The notes under the pieces: model-generated
The model's database searches: none
Told to the model about the DNA's origin: nothing
The model's input: only the letters and a program-made list of their open reading frames with translations
Assembly: GCA_900637705.1 (NCBI GenBank)
Contig: LR134390.1
Coordinates: forward strand, 310,001 to 374,000
DNA: 64,000 nt
Source: Fusobacterium varium
GTDB lineage: Bacteria; Fusobacteriota; Fusobacteriia; Fusobacteriales; Fusobacteriaceae
Direction: 5' to 3'
Shown here: piece by piece, positions 24,430 to 35,580 of the stretch
How positions within the stretch are numbered: position 1 is the stretch's first letter
Layout of the letters: every line of letters starts with the position of its first letter
Made by a program: the position numbers and the translations under genes

Positions 24430-25577
24430 ATGGTAAATAGAATTGTATTAAATAATATATCTTATCATGGAGCAGGAGCTATAAAAGTTATACCAGATGA
24501 AGTGAAAGGAAGAGGATTAAAAAAAGCATTTGTATGTTCAGATCCAGATTTAGTTAAACTTGGAATAACTGGAAAAGTAACTTCTATATTAGAAGCAGAA
24601 GGATTATCTTATGAATTATATTCAAATATAAAGCCAAATCCAACTATAGAGAATGTAAAAGATGGAGTAGTGGCTTTTAAAAACTCAGGAGCAGATTATA
24701 TTATTTCTATAGGTGGAGGTTCATCCATGGATACAGCCAAAGCTATTGGAATAATAATTACAAACCCAGAATTTGAAGATGTAAGAAGCTTAGAAGGGTG
24801 TGCAGCAACTAAAAATCCAGCAGTACCAACAATTGCTATAGCAACTACAGCTGGAACAGCAGCAGAGGTTACAATTAACTATGTTATAACTGATGTAGAA
24901 AAAGAAAGAAAATTTGTATGTGTAGATCCTCATGACATGGCTATTATAGCAATATTAGATCCTGAAATGATGTCTTCTATGCCAAAAGGATTGACAGCTG
25001 CAACTGGAATGGATGCTTTGACACATGCAATAGAGGGATATATAACAAAAGCAGCATGGGAAATGACAGATATGTTTCATATAAAAGCTATTGAATTAAT
25101 AGCAAAGCATCTTAAAGGAGCAGTAGAAAATACACCAGAGGGAAGAGAAGGAATGGCACTAGCACAATACATAGCAGGAATGGGATTCTCAAATGTAGGA
25201 TTAGGAATAGTTCACTCTATGGCACACCCTTTAGGAGCTTTATACGATACTCCTCATGGAATAGCAAATGCAATAATACTTCCAACAGTAATGGAATATA
25301 ATGCTTCTTATACTGGAGAAAAATATAGAGAAATAGCAAGAGCATTTGGAGTGGAAGAATTAGAAAAATGTCTCAGGAAGAATATAGAACAGCAGCAATT
25401 CAAGCAGTTAAAAAACTATCTAAAGAGATTGGAATACCAACAGATTTAAAAGAAATAGTAAAAGAAGAGGATTTAGAGTTCTTATCTGAATCAGCATTTA
25501 ATGATGTATGTACTGGTGGAAATCCAAGAGAAACTTCTTCTGAAGAAATAAAGAGATTATACGAATCGTTAATATAG
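24430..25577 (+). CDS. fucO: Lactaldehyde reductase (iron-dependent alcohol dehydrogenase), frame broken by one missing base
   Basis: FucO reduces L-lactaldehyde, a fucose breakdown product, to L-1,2-propanediol. The first frame contains GGGSSMDTAKAIG (NAD-binding), TTAGTAAEVT and the metal-binding GMDALTHAIEGY and HSMAHPLGALYDTPHG. The C-terminus, from MSQEEYRTAA to RLYESLI, lies in the next frame. One A added at 25364-25368 restores about 382 residues, the same length as E. coli FucO. Metal ligands are complete. It is in the fucose operon between fucP and the kinase gene. Confidence 0.9.
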
Positions 25578-30032: not shown

Positions 30033-30806
30033 TTAAATAATACTTTTTATATTTAAATTTTCTAATTCTTTTGAAATTGATAATGAATGTTCTTTTAAAA
30101 GATTTTTTATTTTTAAAATTTCTTCTTGATTAGCTCTAAAAATTGGCAGACTGACACCAATAGCAGCATTTATTTTATTATTTATTATTATAGGAACAGC
30201 TATGCAGCATGCGTCAGAAGTAACCTCACCAAATTCTTCAGCAAATTTATTAATTTTAGCTTTCTTTACAATTTCAAGTAGTTCTTCTATATCTGTGACA
30301 GTATTTTCTGTAAATTGATTCATTCCATTGGAATATAAATTTCTTATTTCTTCTTCTGAATATTCGCAGAGAAGTACTCTTCCAAGTCCTGTACAATATA
30401 AAGGAAGATTTCTTCCAATAGAGGACATTAACTTTATAGGGAGAGAGCATTCAACTTTTGTTAAATAAAGAACTTCATTATTGTGATTTATTCCTATTTG
30501 ACAAGTTTCATTACATTGAGCAACTATTGATCTCATATGGGACTTTATAATTTCAAGACCATTTACATTTTCTAAATAAGCTTGCCCTACCTGAAAAGTA
30601 GCTAAACCAATAGAATAAGTTTGGGAAATAGGATCTAAAACTAGAAATTCAAGTTCAACTAAAGTTTTTAAAATTGGGGATAAAGTACTTTTAGGCATAT
30701 TAGTTAATTTTGAAATACTTGAAAAATTTAATTTATCAGAATTTTTAGCTATAATTTTTAAAATATTAGTGACCCTCTCTGTAGGATTATGTAATAAAGT
30801 TTCCAT
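30033..30806 (-). CDS. IclR-family transcriptional regulator (probable uronate repressor)
   Basis: A 257-residue regulator with an N-terminal winged helix (FSSISKLTNMPKSTLSPILKTL) and a C-terminal GAF-like effector domain (VAQCNETCQIGI, GLGRVLLCEYSEEEI, and SDACCIAVPI with conserved Cys/Ala pattern). IclR members such as KdgR control pectin and uronate catabolism. It diverges from the TRAP-kdu operon and a perfect palindrome lies over the operon's predicted start, so it is the likely repressor (inference). The start is the first ATG, with a weak GA-rich site. Confidence 0.88.
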   Translation of the reverse strand: METLLHNPTERVTNILKIIAKNSDKLNFSSISKLTNMPKSTLSPILKTLVELEFLVLDPISQTYSIGLATFQVGQAYLENVNGLEIIKSHMRSIVAQCNETCQIGINHNNEVLYLTKVECSLPIKLMSSIGRNLPLYCTGLGRVLLCEYSEEEIRNLYSNGMNQFTENTVTDIEELLEIVKKAKINKFAEEFGEVTSDACCIAVPIIINNKINAAIGVSLPIFRANQEEILKIKNLLKEHSLSISKELENLNIKSII

Positions 30807-30962
30807 CTTTTCCTTCTTTCTTAAAAATAATTCTATTTAATATCTTAACAAAAAAAATAAGAAAAAGCTATTAAAATTTAAAGTCTGAAAATATATGTAG
30901 AATTTTTGTATTTTTATAGAACTTAAAATTCGCAATATGGTAATAAAAAATAAAAATAATAC

Positions 30963-30991
30963 TTGACTTATTAAAAAACTTAGAGTATATT
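30963..30991 (+). promoter_or_regulatory. Promoter of the TRAP-kdu operon
   Basis: TTGACT at 30963-30968 and TATATT at 30986-30991 with exactly 17 bases between them form a good sigma-70-type promoter. The transcription start would fall at about 30998, at the left edge of the palindrome at 31001. Confidence 0.75.
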
Positions 30992-31000
30992 TTATTTATA

Positions 31001-31028
31001 CTTATTTACGAACTAGTTCGTAAATAAG
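31001..31028. promoter_or_regulatory. Perfect 28-bp palindromic operator, probable IclR site
   Basis: Each half reads CTTATTTACGAACT, and the second half is its exact reverse complement, centred between 31014 and 31015. It covers the predicted transcription start region of dctP and would block initiation or early elongation when occupied. The divergent IclR gene encodes the most likely protein. Confidence 0.8.
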
Positions 31029-31066
31029 AACAAAATTAAAAAAATAAATTTAGAGGGGGCTCACAA

Positions 31067-32071
31067 ATGAAAAAAATATTATTTGCAGGAAGTTTGTTGC
31101 TTATAGGAATGTTTATTGGATGTTCAAAGGAAAAAGAAACTGCAGCTAAAGAAAAAGTTAAAACTCAAGTTTTAAAAGTTGCTTTTAATCAATCAGAAAA
31201 TCATCCTCAATATAAAGCATTAACAAAATTTAGCAATCAATTGGAAGAACAAACAAAAGGAGCATATAAATTAGAAATATCTCCAAATGCTTTGTTGGGA
31301 GATCAAAGGGCAACAGCTGAACTGGTGCAAAATGGAGTTATTCAAATGTCAGTTGTAGGGAATCCAGTTGTTGAAAGTTTTAATAAAGATTTTAGTGTTA
31401 TAGGGTTGCCATATTTATATGATGATTTAGAACATCAGAAAAAAGTTTTTTTATCAGATGTATTAGAACCATTATTTAAATCTGTTTCTTCAAGTGGATT
31501 TGAGGTAATAGGAGCATTTACAGCAGGAGCTAGATGTCTTTATACAAATAAACCAATGATGAAACCAGAGGATTTAAAAGGATATAAATTTAGAGTGATG
31601 CAGTCAGATACAATGAAGAAAATGGTAGATTATATGGGTGGAATAGGAACTCCTATGGGACAGGGAGAAGTTTATACAGCAGTTCAGCAAGGAGTTATTG
31701 AAGGTGGAGAAAATAATGAAGTAACTTATGTAGATTTAAAACATTATGAAATAGCTCCTTATTTCTCTTATACAAACCATTTAATGGTTCCAGACTTAAT
31801 TATTATCAATGAAAAATTATATACTGGAATGACTTCAGAGAATAGAAAAATATTTGATAGTTTAATGAAACAAACTATTGAAAATGAATTTGAGGTATGG
31901 AATGAAAATGTAGAAGCAGCTAAAAAAATTGCAATAGAAAATGGAGCAAAATTTATTGCGGTGGATATTAAACCATTTCAAGAAAGAGTAAAACCTTTAC
32001 AGGAGGAAGTAGCTAATTCTTCTGAACTGACTAAAGATATATATGCTAAAGTAAGAGAATTAGCAAAATAA
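31067..32071 (+). CDS. dctP: TRAP transporter substrate-binding lipoprotein (DctP family)
   Basis: A 334-residue extracytoplasmic solute receptor. The N-terminus is a lipoprotein signal peptide ending at the lipobox around residue 19 (LLLIGMFIGC), so the protein is tethered to a membrane. The mature domain has VAFNQSENHP, ELVQNGVIQMSVV, the signature arginine segment YKFRVMQSD and GGIGTPMGQGEVYTAVQQGV. It delivers the ligand to the DctQM permease encoded next. With kduID downstream, the ligand is probably an unsaturated or keto-deoxy uronate or a hexuronate (inference). Confidence 0.93.
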   Translation: MKKILFAGSLLLIGMFIGCSKEKETAAKEKVKTQVLKVAFNQSENHPQYKALTKFSNQLEEQTKGAYKLEISPNALLGDQRATAELVQNGVIQMSVVGNPVVESFNKDFSVIGLPYLYDDLEHQKKVFLSDVLEPLFKSVSSSGFEVIGAFTAGARCLYTNKPMMKPEDLKGYKFRVMQSDTMKKMVDYMGGIGTPMGQGEVYTAVQQGVIEGGENNEVTYVDLKHYEIAPYFSYTNHLMVPDLIIINEKLYTGMTSENRKIFDSLMKQTIENEFEVWNENVEAAKKIAIENGAKFIAVDIKPFQERVKPLQEEVANSSELTKDIYAKVRELAK

Positions 32072-32094
32072 TCTTATTTAAGTAAGGAGATAAA

Positions 32095-32577
32095 ATGATG
32101 AAAAGAATAAAAAATGTTCTTGATAAAATTATAGAAATTTTTTGTATTGCTATAATGGGAATAATGACACTATTGGTAACATGGCAGGTTATAACTAGAT
32201 ATGTTTTTAATAAACCTAGTGTTTTTACAGAACAGGTATCTCAGTATTTATTCGTTTGGCTAGTAATGTATGGTTCAGCCTACGTTTTTGGAAAAAGAGA
32301 GCATATGCAGATTTCTTTTATAAGAGATATGGCACCTGAAAATATAAAAAGAATAATTGATGTTATTCAAGAAATAATAATATCAATATTTGTTTTGGGA
32401 GTAATGATATATGGAGGTTATTTTTCTTCTTTGAAGCAAATGACACAGGTAGATGCAGTATTACAAATGCCAATAGGGATTATTTATTCTGCAATTCCAA
32501 TTAGTGGAGTCTTTATAGTCTTCTATGTAATATATAATATTAAGAAAATAATTTTTAATAAAAAAGAAGAAGAATAA
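32095..32577 (+). CDS. dctQ: TRAP transporter small permease (DctQ)
   Basis: A 160-residue protein with four membrane helices. The pattern TWQVITRYVFNKPSVFTEQVSQYLFVW at the first cytoplasmic loop is typical of DctQ subunits (shown here only as recognised by TWQVITRYVF). It is located between the substrate-binding and large permease genes. Two adjacent ATG codons are possible starts. Confidence 0.9.
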   Translation: MMKRIKNVLDKIIEIFCIAIMGIMTLLVTWQVITRYVFNKPSVFTEQVSQYLFVWLVMYGSAYVFGKREHMQISFIRDMAPENIKRIIDVIQEIIISIFVLGVMIYGGYFSSLKQMTQVDAVLQMPIGIIYSAIPISGVFIVFYVIYNIKKIIFNKKEEE

Positions 32578-32590
32578 AAAAGGAGAAATT

Positions 32591-33898
32591 ATGGATTTAG
32601 CTTTGCAAATAGGAATATTTATATTTGTTTCACTAGTTATCTTTTTAGCAATAGGAGTTCCAATAAGTATAAGTATAGGGCTTTCTTCAACAATAGCTAT
32701 GTTGGTTATACTGCCATTTGATGGGGCAATGGGGACATCTGCTCAAAGAGTATTTATAGGAACTAACTCTTTTTCATTATTAGCAATTCCATTTTTTATT
32801 CTAGCTGGGAATATAATGAATACTGGTGGAATTGCAATAAGACTTATTAATTGTGCAAAACTTTTTGGAAGAAGATTTTATGGTCCACTAGCTCAGGCTA
32901 ATGTTGTCGCAAATATGCTTTTTGGTGCTATAAGTGGTTCAGGCGTAGCTGCAGCTGCAGCAGTAGGAGGAACAATTTCTCCTATAGAAGAAAGGGAAGG
33001 ATATGATAAAAGGTTTAGTTCAGCAGTAAATATATCTTCAGCTCCAACAGGGATGCTTATTCCTCCAAGCAATACATTGATTGTATATTCAACAGTAGCA
33101 GGGAGTGTTTCAATTTCAGCTCTATTTATAGCAGGTTATCTTCCTGGAATTCTATGGGGATTGGGAGTAATGACAGTTGCTGGAATTATGGCTAAAAAGT
33201 TAAAATATAAATCAGAAGGAAATATAAATGTAAAACAAATAGTAAAAATAGTATTAGATGCTATTCCAAGCTTATTATTAATAATAATTGTAATAGGAGG
33301 GATTTTAAAAGGAGTATTTACAGCAACAGAGGGTTCAGCCATAGCTGTTGTATATTCATTGATTCTTTCTTTGATATACGGAGAAATGAAACTTAGTGAT
33401 TTACCTAAAATATTTTTAAGCTCTGCTCAAATGACAGCAATAGTAATATTTATGATAGGGGTATCATCTATAATGTCATGGGTAATGGCTTTTGCGAATA
33501 TACCTCAAAAAATAGCTGAATTGCTTTTAGGAGTAACTGACAGTAAAATAATAATATTAATTATTATGAATATAATACTTTTATTGATAGGAACATTTAT
33601 GGATCCAACACCTGCAGTTTTAATATTTACTCCAATTTTTTTACCAATAGTAGAAAGATTTGGTATGACACCTGTTCATTTTGGAATAATGCTTGTATTT
33701 AACTTATGTATAGGGACAATAACCCCACCAGTTGGACCAATTTTATTTACAGGATGTAAGGTTGGGCAGGTTAGTATAGAAGATGTATTTAAATGGTTAC
33801 TACCATTTTATACAGTAACAATTCTTATACTATTTTTAGTTACTTTTATACCAAGTTTTTCATTGATATTACCACAGGCATTTGGATTGATAAAATAA
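32591..33898 (+). CDS. dctM: TRAP transporter large permease (DctM)
   Basis: A 435-residue sodium-coupled permease with about 12 hydrophobic segments. Family signatures include SGSGVAAAAAVGG, TGMLIPPSNTLIVYS, ATEGSAIAVVYSL and the C-terminal GTITPPVGPILFTG. Together with DctP and DctQ it forms a complete tripartite TRAP transporter. It is closely spaced after dctQ and precedes kduI in the same direction. Confidence 0.94.
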   Translation: MDLALQIGIFIFVSLVIFLAIGVPISISIGLSSTIAMLVILPFDGAMGTSAQRVFIGTNSFSLLAIPFFILAGNIMNTGGIAIRLINCAKLFGRRFYGPLAQANVVANMLFGAISGSGVAAAAAVGGTISPIEEREGYDKRFSSAVNISSAPTGMLIPPSNTLIVYSTVAGSVSISALFIAGYLPGILWGLGVMTVAGIMAKKLKYKSEGNINVKQIVKIVLDAIPSLLLIIIVIGGILKGVFTATEGSAIAVVYSLILSLIYGEMKLSDLPKIFLSSAQMTAIVIFMIGVSSIMSWVMAFANIPQKIAELLLGVTDSKIIILIIMNIILLLIGTFMDPTPAVLIFTPIFLPIVERFGMTPVHFGIMLVFNLCIGTITPPVGPILFTGCKVGQVSIEDVFKWLLPFYTVTILILFLVTFIPSFSLILPQAFGLIK

Positions 33899-33942
33899 TA
33901 AAGGTAAATTAAAATATAAATTTATATATTGAAGGAGGAAAA

Positions 33943-34773
33943 ATGGAGATTCGTTATGCTTCAAGCAATAAAGATGCGAAGAATTATGATACAAGTAGAT
34001 TGAGGGAAGAATACCTTATAGAAAATTTATTTACACCTAATGATTTAAAGTTAGTTTATTCACATATAGATAGAATTATAGTAGGAGGAGTTTGTCCTTG
34101 TAAAGATATATTAAAACTGGAGGGGAGCAAAGAACTAGGTTCTAACTTTTTTCTTGAGAGAAGAGAATTGGGGATTATAAACATAGGAGGAGCAGGAGTA
34201 GTTGTTTTAGATGGAGAAGAGTTTTCCCTAAACACTAAAGATGCATTATATGTTGGAATAGGAACTAAAGATGTACTTTTTAAATCTATTGACAGTAAAA
34301 ATCCAGCAAAATTTTATTTAAATTCTGCTCCAGCTCATCATAAATATCCAACAGTTAAGATAAGTCTTGAAGATGCTAGAAAAGTAAAGTTAGGAAGTAC
34401 AGAAACTTCAAATAAAAGAACAATAAATCAATATATTCATCCAGATGTATGTCAGTCTTGTCAATTGGTTATGGGAATGACAATGCTGGAAGATGGCTCA
34501 GTATGGAATAGTATGCCGACTCATACACATGATAGAAGAATGGAAGTATATTTTTATTTTGATATGGAAGAAGATACAAGAATATTTCATTTGATGGGTG
34601 AACCAAAAGAAACAAGACATATTGTGATGAAAAATGAAGAAGCAGTAATTTCACCATCTTGGTCAATTCACAGTGGTGTAGGTACAGCAAGTTATACATT
34701 TATTTGGGGAATGGTAGGAGAAAATCAAACTTTTACAGATATGGACCATATAATGATGAAAGATATAAAATAA
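33943..34773 (+). CDS. kduI: 5-keto-4-deoxyuronate isomerase
   Basis: A 276-residue cupin-type zinc isomerase acting on 4-deoxy-L-threo-5-hexosulose uronate. Motifs: YSHIDRIIVGG, HPDVCQSCQLVMGMT with the metal-binding region, and MPTHTHDRRMEVYFYFD. The length equals the family norm. It is followed by kduD; together they take the product of unsaturated uronyl hydrolysis to 2-keto-3-deoxygluconate. The polysaccharide lyase or hydrolase feeding them is not in this window. Confidence 0.95.
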   Translation: MEIRYASSNKDAKNYDTSRLREEYLIENLFTPNDLKLVYSHIDRIIVGGVCPCKDILKLEGSKELGSNFFLERRELGIINIGGAGVVVLDGEEFSLNTKDALYVGIGTKDVLFKSIDSKNPAKFYLNSAPAHHKYPTVKISLEDARKVKLGSTETSNKRTINQYIHPDVCQSCQLVMGMTMLEDGSVWNSMPTHTHDRRMEVYFYFDMEEDTRIFHLMGEPKETRHIVMKNEEAVISPSWSIHSGVGTASYTFIWGMVGENQTFTDMDHIMMKDIK

Positions 34774-34806
34774 GGGAAGAATATATATTTTATTAGGAGG
34801 CAGAAA

Positions 34807-35580
34807 ATGTTAAGTGAATTTTCAATGGACTTTTTTTCTTTGAAAGGAAAAACAGCAATTGTGACAGGAGGAAATACAGGATTAGGACAGGGATATGTTG
34901 TAGCATTTGCTAAAGCAGGAGCAGATCTTTTTGTTACTACTTATGATAGAGAATGGGAAGAAACAAGAAAACTTGTAGAGGCTGAAGGAAGAAAAATTCA
35001 TTTTTTTCAAGCAGATTTAACAGAGAGAGCTCAAGTTAGTGCAGCAGTACAGGAATGTATGAAAGTCTATGGGAAAATAGATATATTAGTAAATAATGCA
35101 GGAACTATAAGAAGAGCACCTTTATTGGAATATAAAGATTCTGATTGGGAAGCAGTAATGAATATCAATTTGAATGCAGTTTATTATATGAGCCAAGATG
35201 TAGCTAAAATAATGGTAACTCAAGGAAGTGGGAAAATAATAAATGTAGCTTCAATGCTTTCATTTCAAGGAGGAAAATTTGTACCTCCATATACAGCAAG
35301 CAAGCATGGAGTTGCAGGATTGACTAAGGCTTTTGCAAATGAACTAGCATGTAAGAATATTCAAGTTAATGCAATAGCTCCAGGATATATAAAAACAGCA
35401 AATACAGCACCTATAAGAGCAGATGAAAAGAGAAATGCTGAAATTTTAAGCAGAATACCAGCAGATAAATGGGCAGAACCATCTGAATTGATGGGAGCAA
35501 TAGTATTTTTAGCGAGTAGAGCTTCAGACTATGTAAATGGTCATATATTAGCTGTAGATGGTGGCTGGCTGGTTAGATAA
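34807..35580 (+). CDS. kduD: 2-deoxy-D-gluconate 3-dehydrogenase (SDR)
   Basis: A 257-residue short-chain dehydrogenase. TGGNTGLGQG is the nucleotide-binding motif, NNAG and the catalytic Ser and Tyr-x-x-x-Lys (YTASKHG) are present, and the C-terminus ends with a family-typical GGWLVR. It reduces 2,5-diketo-3-deoxygluconate to 2-keto-3-deoxygluconate. The start at 34807 follows AGGAGG; a later ATG at 34825 is a weaker alternative. It is the last gene of the uronate operon. Confidence 0.92.
   Translation: MLSEFSMDFFSLKGKTAIVTGGNTGLGQGYVVAFAKAGADLFVTTYDREWEETRKLVEAEGRKIHFFQADLTERAQVSAAVQECMKVYGKIDILVNNAGTIRRAPLLEYKDSDWEAVMNINLNAVYYMSQDVAKIMVTQGSGKIINVASMLSFQGGKFVPPYTASKHGVAGLTKAFANELACKNIQVNAIAPGYIKTANTAPIRADEKRNAEILSRIPADKWAEPSELMGAIVFLASRASDYVNGHILAVDGGWLVR

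Follow-up and report, generated by a model that had tools for sequence, protein, structure and literature searches.

Introduction

In Escherichia coli the IclR-family regulator YiaJ is encoded beside yiaMNO, a TRAP operon for sugar acids. KdgR of the gamma-proteobacteria, a repressor of the same family, controls the kdu pathway; its regulon is that of pectin and oligogalacturonides, and it is released by its known inducer, 2-keto-3-deoxygluconate (PMC8688573). The operators of the family were surveyed by Suvorova and Gelfand (2021; PMC8222616), who give GKTYCRYW3-4RYGRAMC as the consensus of group 1. Their survey reports tandem operators with spacings of 18-22 nt in many IclR-family groups, consistent with tetramers, and cites TtgV as one of the proteins of the family that bind DNA in tetrameric form. 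It covers fusobacteria, so the motif described below (30998-31031) may already be in its supplement. No dedicated regulatory study of a fusobacterial hexuronate operon was found in the literature that we searched.

The locus described here lies in a 64-kb stretch of Fusobacterium varium DNA (the window, 64,000 nucleotides) and consists of an IclR-family gene divergent from a TRAP-kdu operon, dctPQM-kduI-kduD, with what looks like a well-conserved, ordinary IclR operator of known kind between them (Table 1). It resembles the group-1 operators of PMC8222616 in box sequence, W4 spacer and the 18-nt spacing of centres, as well as in its position upstream of the regulated gene and its association with sugar-acid genes including DctPQM; however, the survey describes tandem pairs and three-box sites, whereas four boxes are read here. 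Like KdgR, the regulator belongs to the IclR family, is predicted to act as a repressor and stands beside genes of the kdu pathway, and the effector is plausibly the same, but the KdgR operator consensus RWWGAAACGNCGTTTCAKKA differs from the array found here, and KdgR runs a large regulon whereas this IclR appears to run one operon. The ligand domain of YiaJ (1ysq) is a distant match to the regulator, and the relatives of DctQ and DctM include YiaM and YiaN, but only distant sequence similarity links the two systems, and the catabolic genes differ, those of the YiaJ system belonging to the diketogulonate pathway. TtgV (DNA-bound structure 2xro) is of the same family but matches weakly in sequence and differs in role and effectors. 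The locus provides fusobacteria with a well-supported example of a predicted operator and promoter that serve genes for taking up and degrading hexuronates.

Results

The regulator and the divergent operon

The gene facing the operon had been described as an IclR gene, and its product scored 34.0 bits against HTH_IclR (Pfam cut-off 22) and 123.4 bits against IclR_C (cut-off 24), which places it in the family. Against the NCBIfam KdgR and BhcR models it scored about 133 bits each, well under the cut-offs; for the KdgR equivalog PRK15090 the values were 133.1 bits against a cut-off of 275, so that it falls outside this equivalog. The best solved relative of DctP, 4N91, is the D-glucuronate-binding Apre_1383 (PMC7660916), and the ligand-contact arginine and asparagine motifs named in that study appear by eye to be kept in the alignment, mapped by motif order and not by structure; together these observations make a hexuronate-like cargo plausible. 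Neither a GH88 unsaturated glucuronyl hydrolase nor UxaC was found in the window's genome.

A tie to the upstream fucose operon was considered and rejected, as no matching site for it was found in the window and the fuc genes are not beside iclR in two relatives (G009 and G010). The fucO-like lactaldehyde reductase frame (window 24430-25449) encodes 339 aa, compared with 379-382 positions in the NCBIfam model, and its end departs from the profile, as if the frame had shifted in the 3' part of the gene.

Table 1. Features of the iclR-dctP intergenic region and its flanking genes (window coordinates; 30033-35580).
Feature	Position	Strand	Basis
iclR-family regulator, 257 aa, divergent from operon	30033-30806	-	Pfam IclR_C, HTH_IclR
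-35 element TTGACT	30963-30968	+	sequence; kept in orthologues
-10 element TATATT, 17-nt spacer	30986-30991	+	sequence; kept in orthologues
predicted operator sub-site 1, ATACTTATTTACGAAC (group-1 IclR type)	30998-31013	+	boxes 30998-31003, 31008-31013; kept at orthologous loci
perfect 28-bp palindrome, CTTATTTACGAACT then AGTTCGTAAATAAG	31001-31028	.	read from sequence
predicted operator sub-site 2, GTTCGTAAATAAGAAC	31016-31031	+	boxes 31016-31021, 31026-31031; kept at orthologous loci
ribosome-binding site of dctP, purine-rich, AGAGGGGG	31052-31059	+	read directly from sequence
dctP, TRAP solute-binding protein	31067-32071	+	family profiles; best solved relative 4N91
dctQ, TRAP small permease	32095-32577	+	family profiles
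dctM, TRAP large permease	32591-33898	+	family profiles
kduI, 5-dehydro-4-deoxy-D-glucuronate isomerase	33943-34773	+	NCBIfam 471.8 bits, cut-off 250
kduD, 2-dehydro-3-deoxy-D-gluconate 5-dehydrogenase	34807-35580	+	NCBIfam 472.1 bits, cut-off 369

A palindrome behind a conserved promoter

The preliminary description of this DNA had pointed to a perfect 28-bp palindrome following a TTGACT-17-TATATT promoter, and both are present. Positions 31001-31028 read exactly CTTATTTACGAACTAGTTCGTAAATAAG, and no other perfect inverted repeat without a gap is as long anywhere in the window. Its arms are of 14 bp, whereas 60 windows simulated with a first-order Markov model gave none longer than 11, and the palindrome is beyond chance. 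It is also unique, as no other copy with three or fewer mismatches was found in the 3.30-Mb genome, and its 16-bp core recurred at two further places in the genome with three mismatches, fewer than a reversed control pattern.

The palindrome starts 9 bp past the end of the promoter. The bare TTGACT-17-TATATT-type pattern was not commoner here than in shuffles and, because promoter-like patterns of such quality are common in AT-rich DNA, the case for the promoter rests on conservation and not on the match: in alignments it was kept in all eight orthologous intergenic regions. Transcription is predicted to start at about 30998.

The conserved unit is an array of four boxes

A search of 61 genomes of the family gave eight orthologues of the regulator (59-98% identity). 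At seven of these loci iclR is divergent from a TRAP-kdu operon, the contig of one of them (G032) ending within kduI. At the eighth, in G006, only kduI-kduD stands divergent from iclR, and dctPQM is on a different contig with its own array directly upstream. In G030 the dctM gene is split over two open frames (L057 4351-5654, G030:C5) and may be a pseudogene, unless the split is a fault of the assembly.

In the orthologous intergenic regions the promoter is followed at a near-constant distance by ATACTTAAATACGAAC-TA-GTTCTTAAATACGAAC or close variants of it, so that the observation named at the outset as refuting the original idea, absence of the motif near orthologous operons, was not made: an array stands at all eight loci. 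What is conserved, however, is not the 28-bp palindrome or its 14-bp half-site, which had been correctly described as a string of letters, but a 34-bp array of four shorter, alternating boxes that make up two sites in tandem, RTACTT-W4-ACGAAC-NN-GTTCKT-W4-AMGAAC, at 30998-31031. When the window is compared with the orthologues at greater distance, this operator region is 0.65-0.85 identical; the same comparison gave 0.32-0.55 for the leader just downstream and 0.37-0.61 for the flank on the iclR side.

The two sub-sites, each of 16 bp, lie 18 bp apart from start to start. Their boxes conform to the group-1 pattern KTYCRY-W4-RYGRAM, the orthologue consensus being GTTCKTAAATACGAAC; in the window one sub-site is close to the group-1 consensus, whereas box 1 of the other is degenerate. 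The distance between centres, 18 nt in the window and 18 or 19 nt in relatives, lies within the 18-22 nt of tandem operators.

The main non-circular test of the array used a matrix built only from sites of a second IclR clade, about 40% identical, whose genes in other genomes lie beside a kdgT-type permease and UxaA-like genes (named from recognisable sequence and not by a family search). The operators of this paralogous clade have the same box arrangement with 19-bp spacing. Of all positions in the window this paralogue-only matrix ranked 31016 first and 30998 second, and the tandem pair scored 29.8, whereas none of 40 simulated windows exceeded 14.0. The two IclR clades, which seem to handle related sugar acids, have one box grammar in common. 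On these comparisons the array is very probably the operator of the adjacent IclR protein.

In the intergenic region of the window no second, autoregulatory site near iclR passed even a low score threshold. Visual inspection suggested a similar GAAC...TTCG element at about 30917-30940, but this was discarded, as it is not kept in G010 or in more distant genomes.

One long dyad or two tandem sites

As the original idea implied, the palindrome could be read as a single long dyad, with one dimer bound at the centre, on ACGAAC-TA-GTTCGT, and its contact lengthened by the CTTATTT arms on either side. In the window this dyad has no mismatch, and its central pairs are well kept in orthologues; in a count of symmetric pairs over nine TRAP-type arrays the central dyad came out slightly ahead of the sub-sites, at 76% of cells compared with 64%. 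However, the perfection is already gone in G009 and G010, in which the IclR protein is about 98% identical, as well as in every other orthologue, and in the genus-g5 genomes the array is an almost exact 18-nt direct repeat. In the paralogue operators, moreover, each 16-mer is palindromic by itself. In G008, G009 and G010 there are also 16-mers that stand singly, close to where the paralogous iclR begins, and these too suggest that the 16-mer is a unit. We therefore regard a single dyad as unlikely. The perfect palindrome looks like a local, lineage-specific coincidence of the four-box arrangement and hence incidental, and since it is confined to one lineage within a conserved multi-box array, most true sites would be overlooked if its exact letters were used as the query. 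The array is probably better read as two tandem sites, each for one dimer.

A variant in which IclR takes up two registers on the array, either as two flanking group-1 dimers or as one central group-2-like dimer, with the ligand shifting the balance to give a graded and not an on/off response, seems to us improbable. We give slightly less credence still to another transcription factor binding in place of the neighbouring IclR: palindromes are bound by other regulators too, but the same array accompanies two separate IclR clades beside their own divergent operons, and it matches the published IclR-family consensus. Least probable is a role of the palindrome as a hairpin in the 5' leader of the transcript, acting on stability or translation, as the fold of the window leader (-14.6 kcal/mol, z = -5.1) is what any perfect DNA dyad must give as RNA, none is found in the leaders of G029, G030 and G006 (z 0.2 to 1.1), and compensatory changes are not in excess.

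A model for control of the operon

We propose that the array is the operator of the divergent IclR protein, with two tandem sites, that it serves to block the dctPQM-kduI-kduD promoter, and that it is freed by a hexuronate catabolite; the probability of this reading is, in our estimate, roughly 0.8. The four alternating 6-bp boxes would form two 16-bp sites with centres 18 bp apart, on which a pair of IclR dimers, as a tetramer, could sit on one face of the DNA. Relative to the predicted start the array spans +1 to about +34, where a bound protein blocks initiation, and this favours repression over activation: IclR bound across the start would block the promoter. A hexuronate catabolite, for example 2-keto-3-deoxygluconate or its 2,5-diketo precursor, would then release it. 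The conserved boxes, the promoter and the gene order come from comparison, and from these we infer binding, tetramer, repression and ligand.

The effector is likely to be an intermediate of the kdu pathway, judging from gene context, as KduD yields 2-keto-3-deoxygluconate, the inducer of KdgR (PMC8688573), and as in G030 iclR is followed by kdgA-kdgK, an order that ties the regulator to this compound. On the same grounds 2-keto-3-deoxygluconate itself is a serious candidate, at somewhat less than even odds. Thus the simple switch that had been suggested is retained in so far as the predicted operator of the adjacent IclR is placed where a repressor would block transcription, but the operator is not the literal palindrome.

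Extent of the regulon

The motif had also been expected to define a uronate regulon across the genome. A sequence model of the array (R1) was run on the 61 genomes; its strong matches at sites on which it was trained are partly circular. In the window's own genome it found one strong place, the next match having E = 0.27; kdgA-kdgK, kdgT and the remaining TRAP loci gave no array. The kdgA-kdgK pair carries a different group-1-like site, TTCCATATATGGAA. The motif thus defines no uronate regulon in this genome, and the expectation has to be given up here. A global regulon of the KdgR type, with sites at kdgK, kdgA and kdgT, was likewise not seen, and the circuit here appears to be local, with one regulator and one operon.

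In other genomes the informative matches of R1 are those at sites outside its training set. They were obtained for the array upstream of the displaced dctPQM genes in G006, for an array ahead of an iron alcohol dehydrogenase gene in G008, G009 and G010 and for one in G042 ahead of a gene cluster that includes the kdgT-type permease. Weaker matches lie ahead of kdgA-kdgK in G038 and G044, where further IclR genes are close by or elsewhere in the genome. The iron alcohol dehydrogenase gene, intact in G008, G009 and G010, changes frame and is thereby interrupted in the genome of the window (L123 3261-4393), where it retains a paralogue-type operator upstream (L123 4413-4447; G000:C1:2786412-2786446).

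Two exact TTCCATATATGGAA palindromes occur near kdgA and a broken IclR gene (L071 7839 and 8917; G000:C1 1945838 and 1946916). The pair, which is present too in G009 and G010, is likely to be a separate group-1 IclR operator. The broken gene next to kdgA-kdgK encodes an IclR paralogue and carries a frameshift in this genome (L071 8070-8824; G000:C1 about 1946069-1946823). It was recovered by tblastn as two pieces in different frames, 96-99% identical to the intact 252-aa protein of G009, so that this strain may have lost its kdgA-kdgK repressor. A second TRAP dctP, beside another IclR gene, is also split, over two open frames (L074 5785-6761; G000:C1 about 189784-190760).
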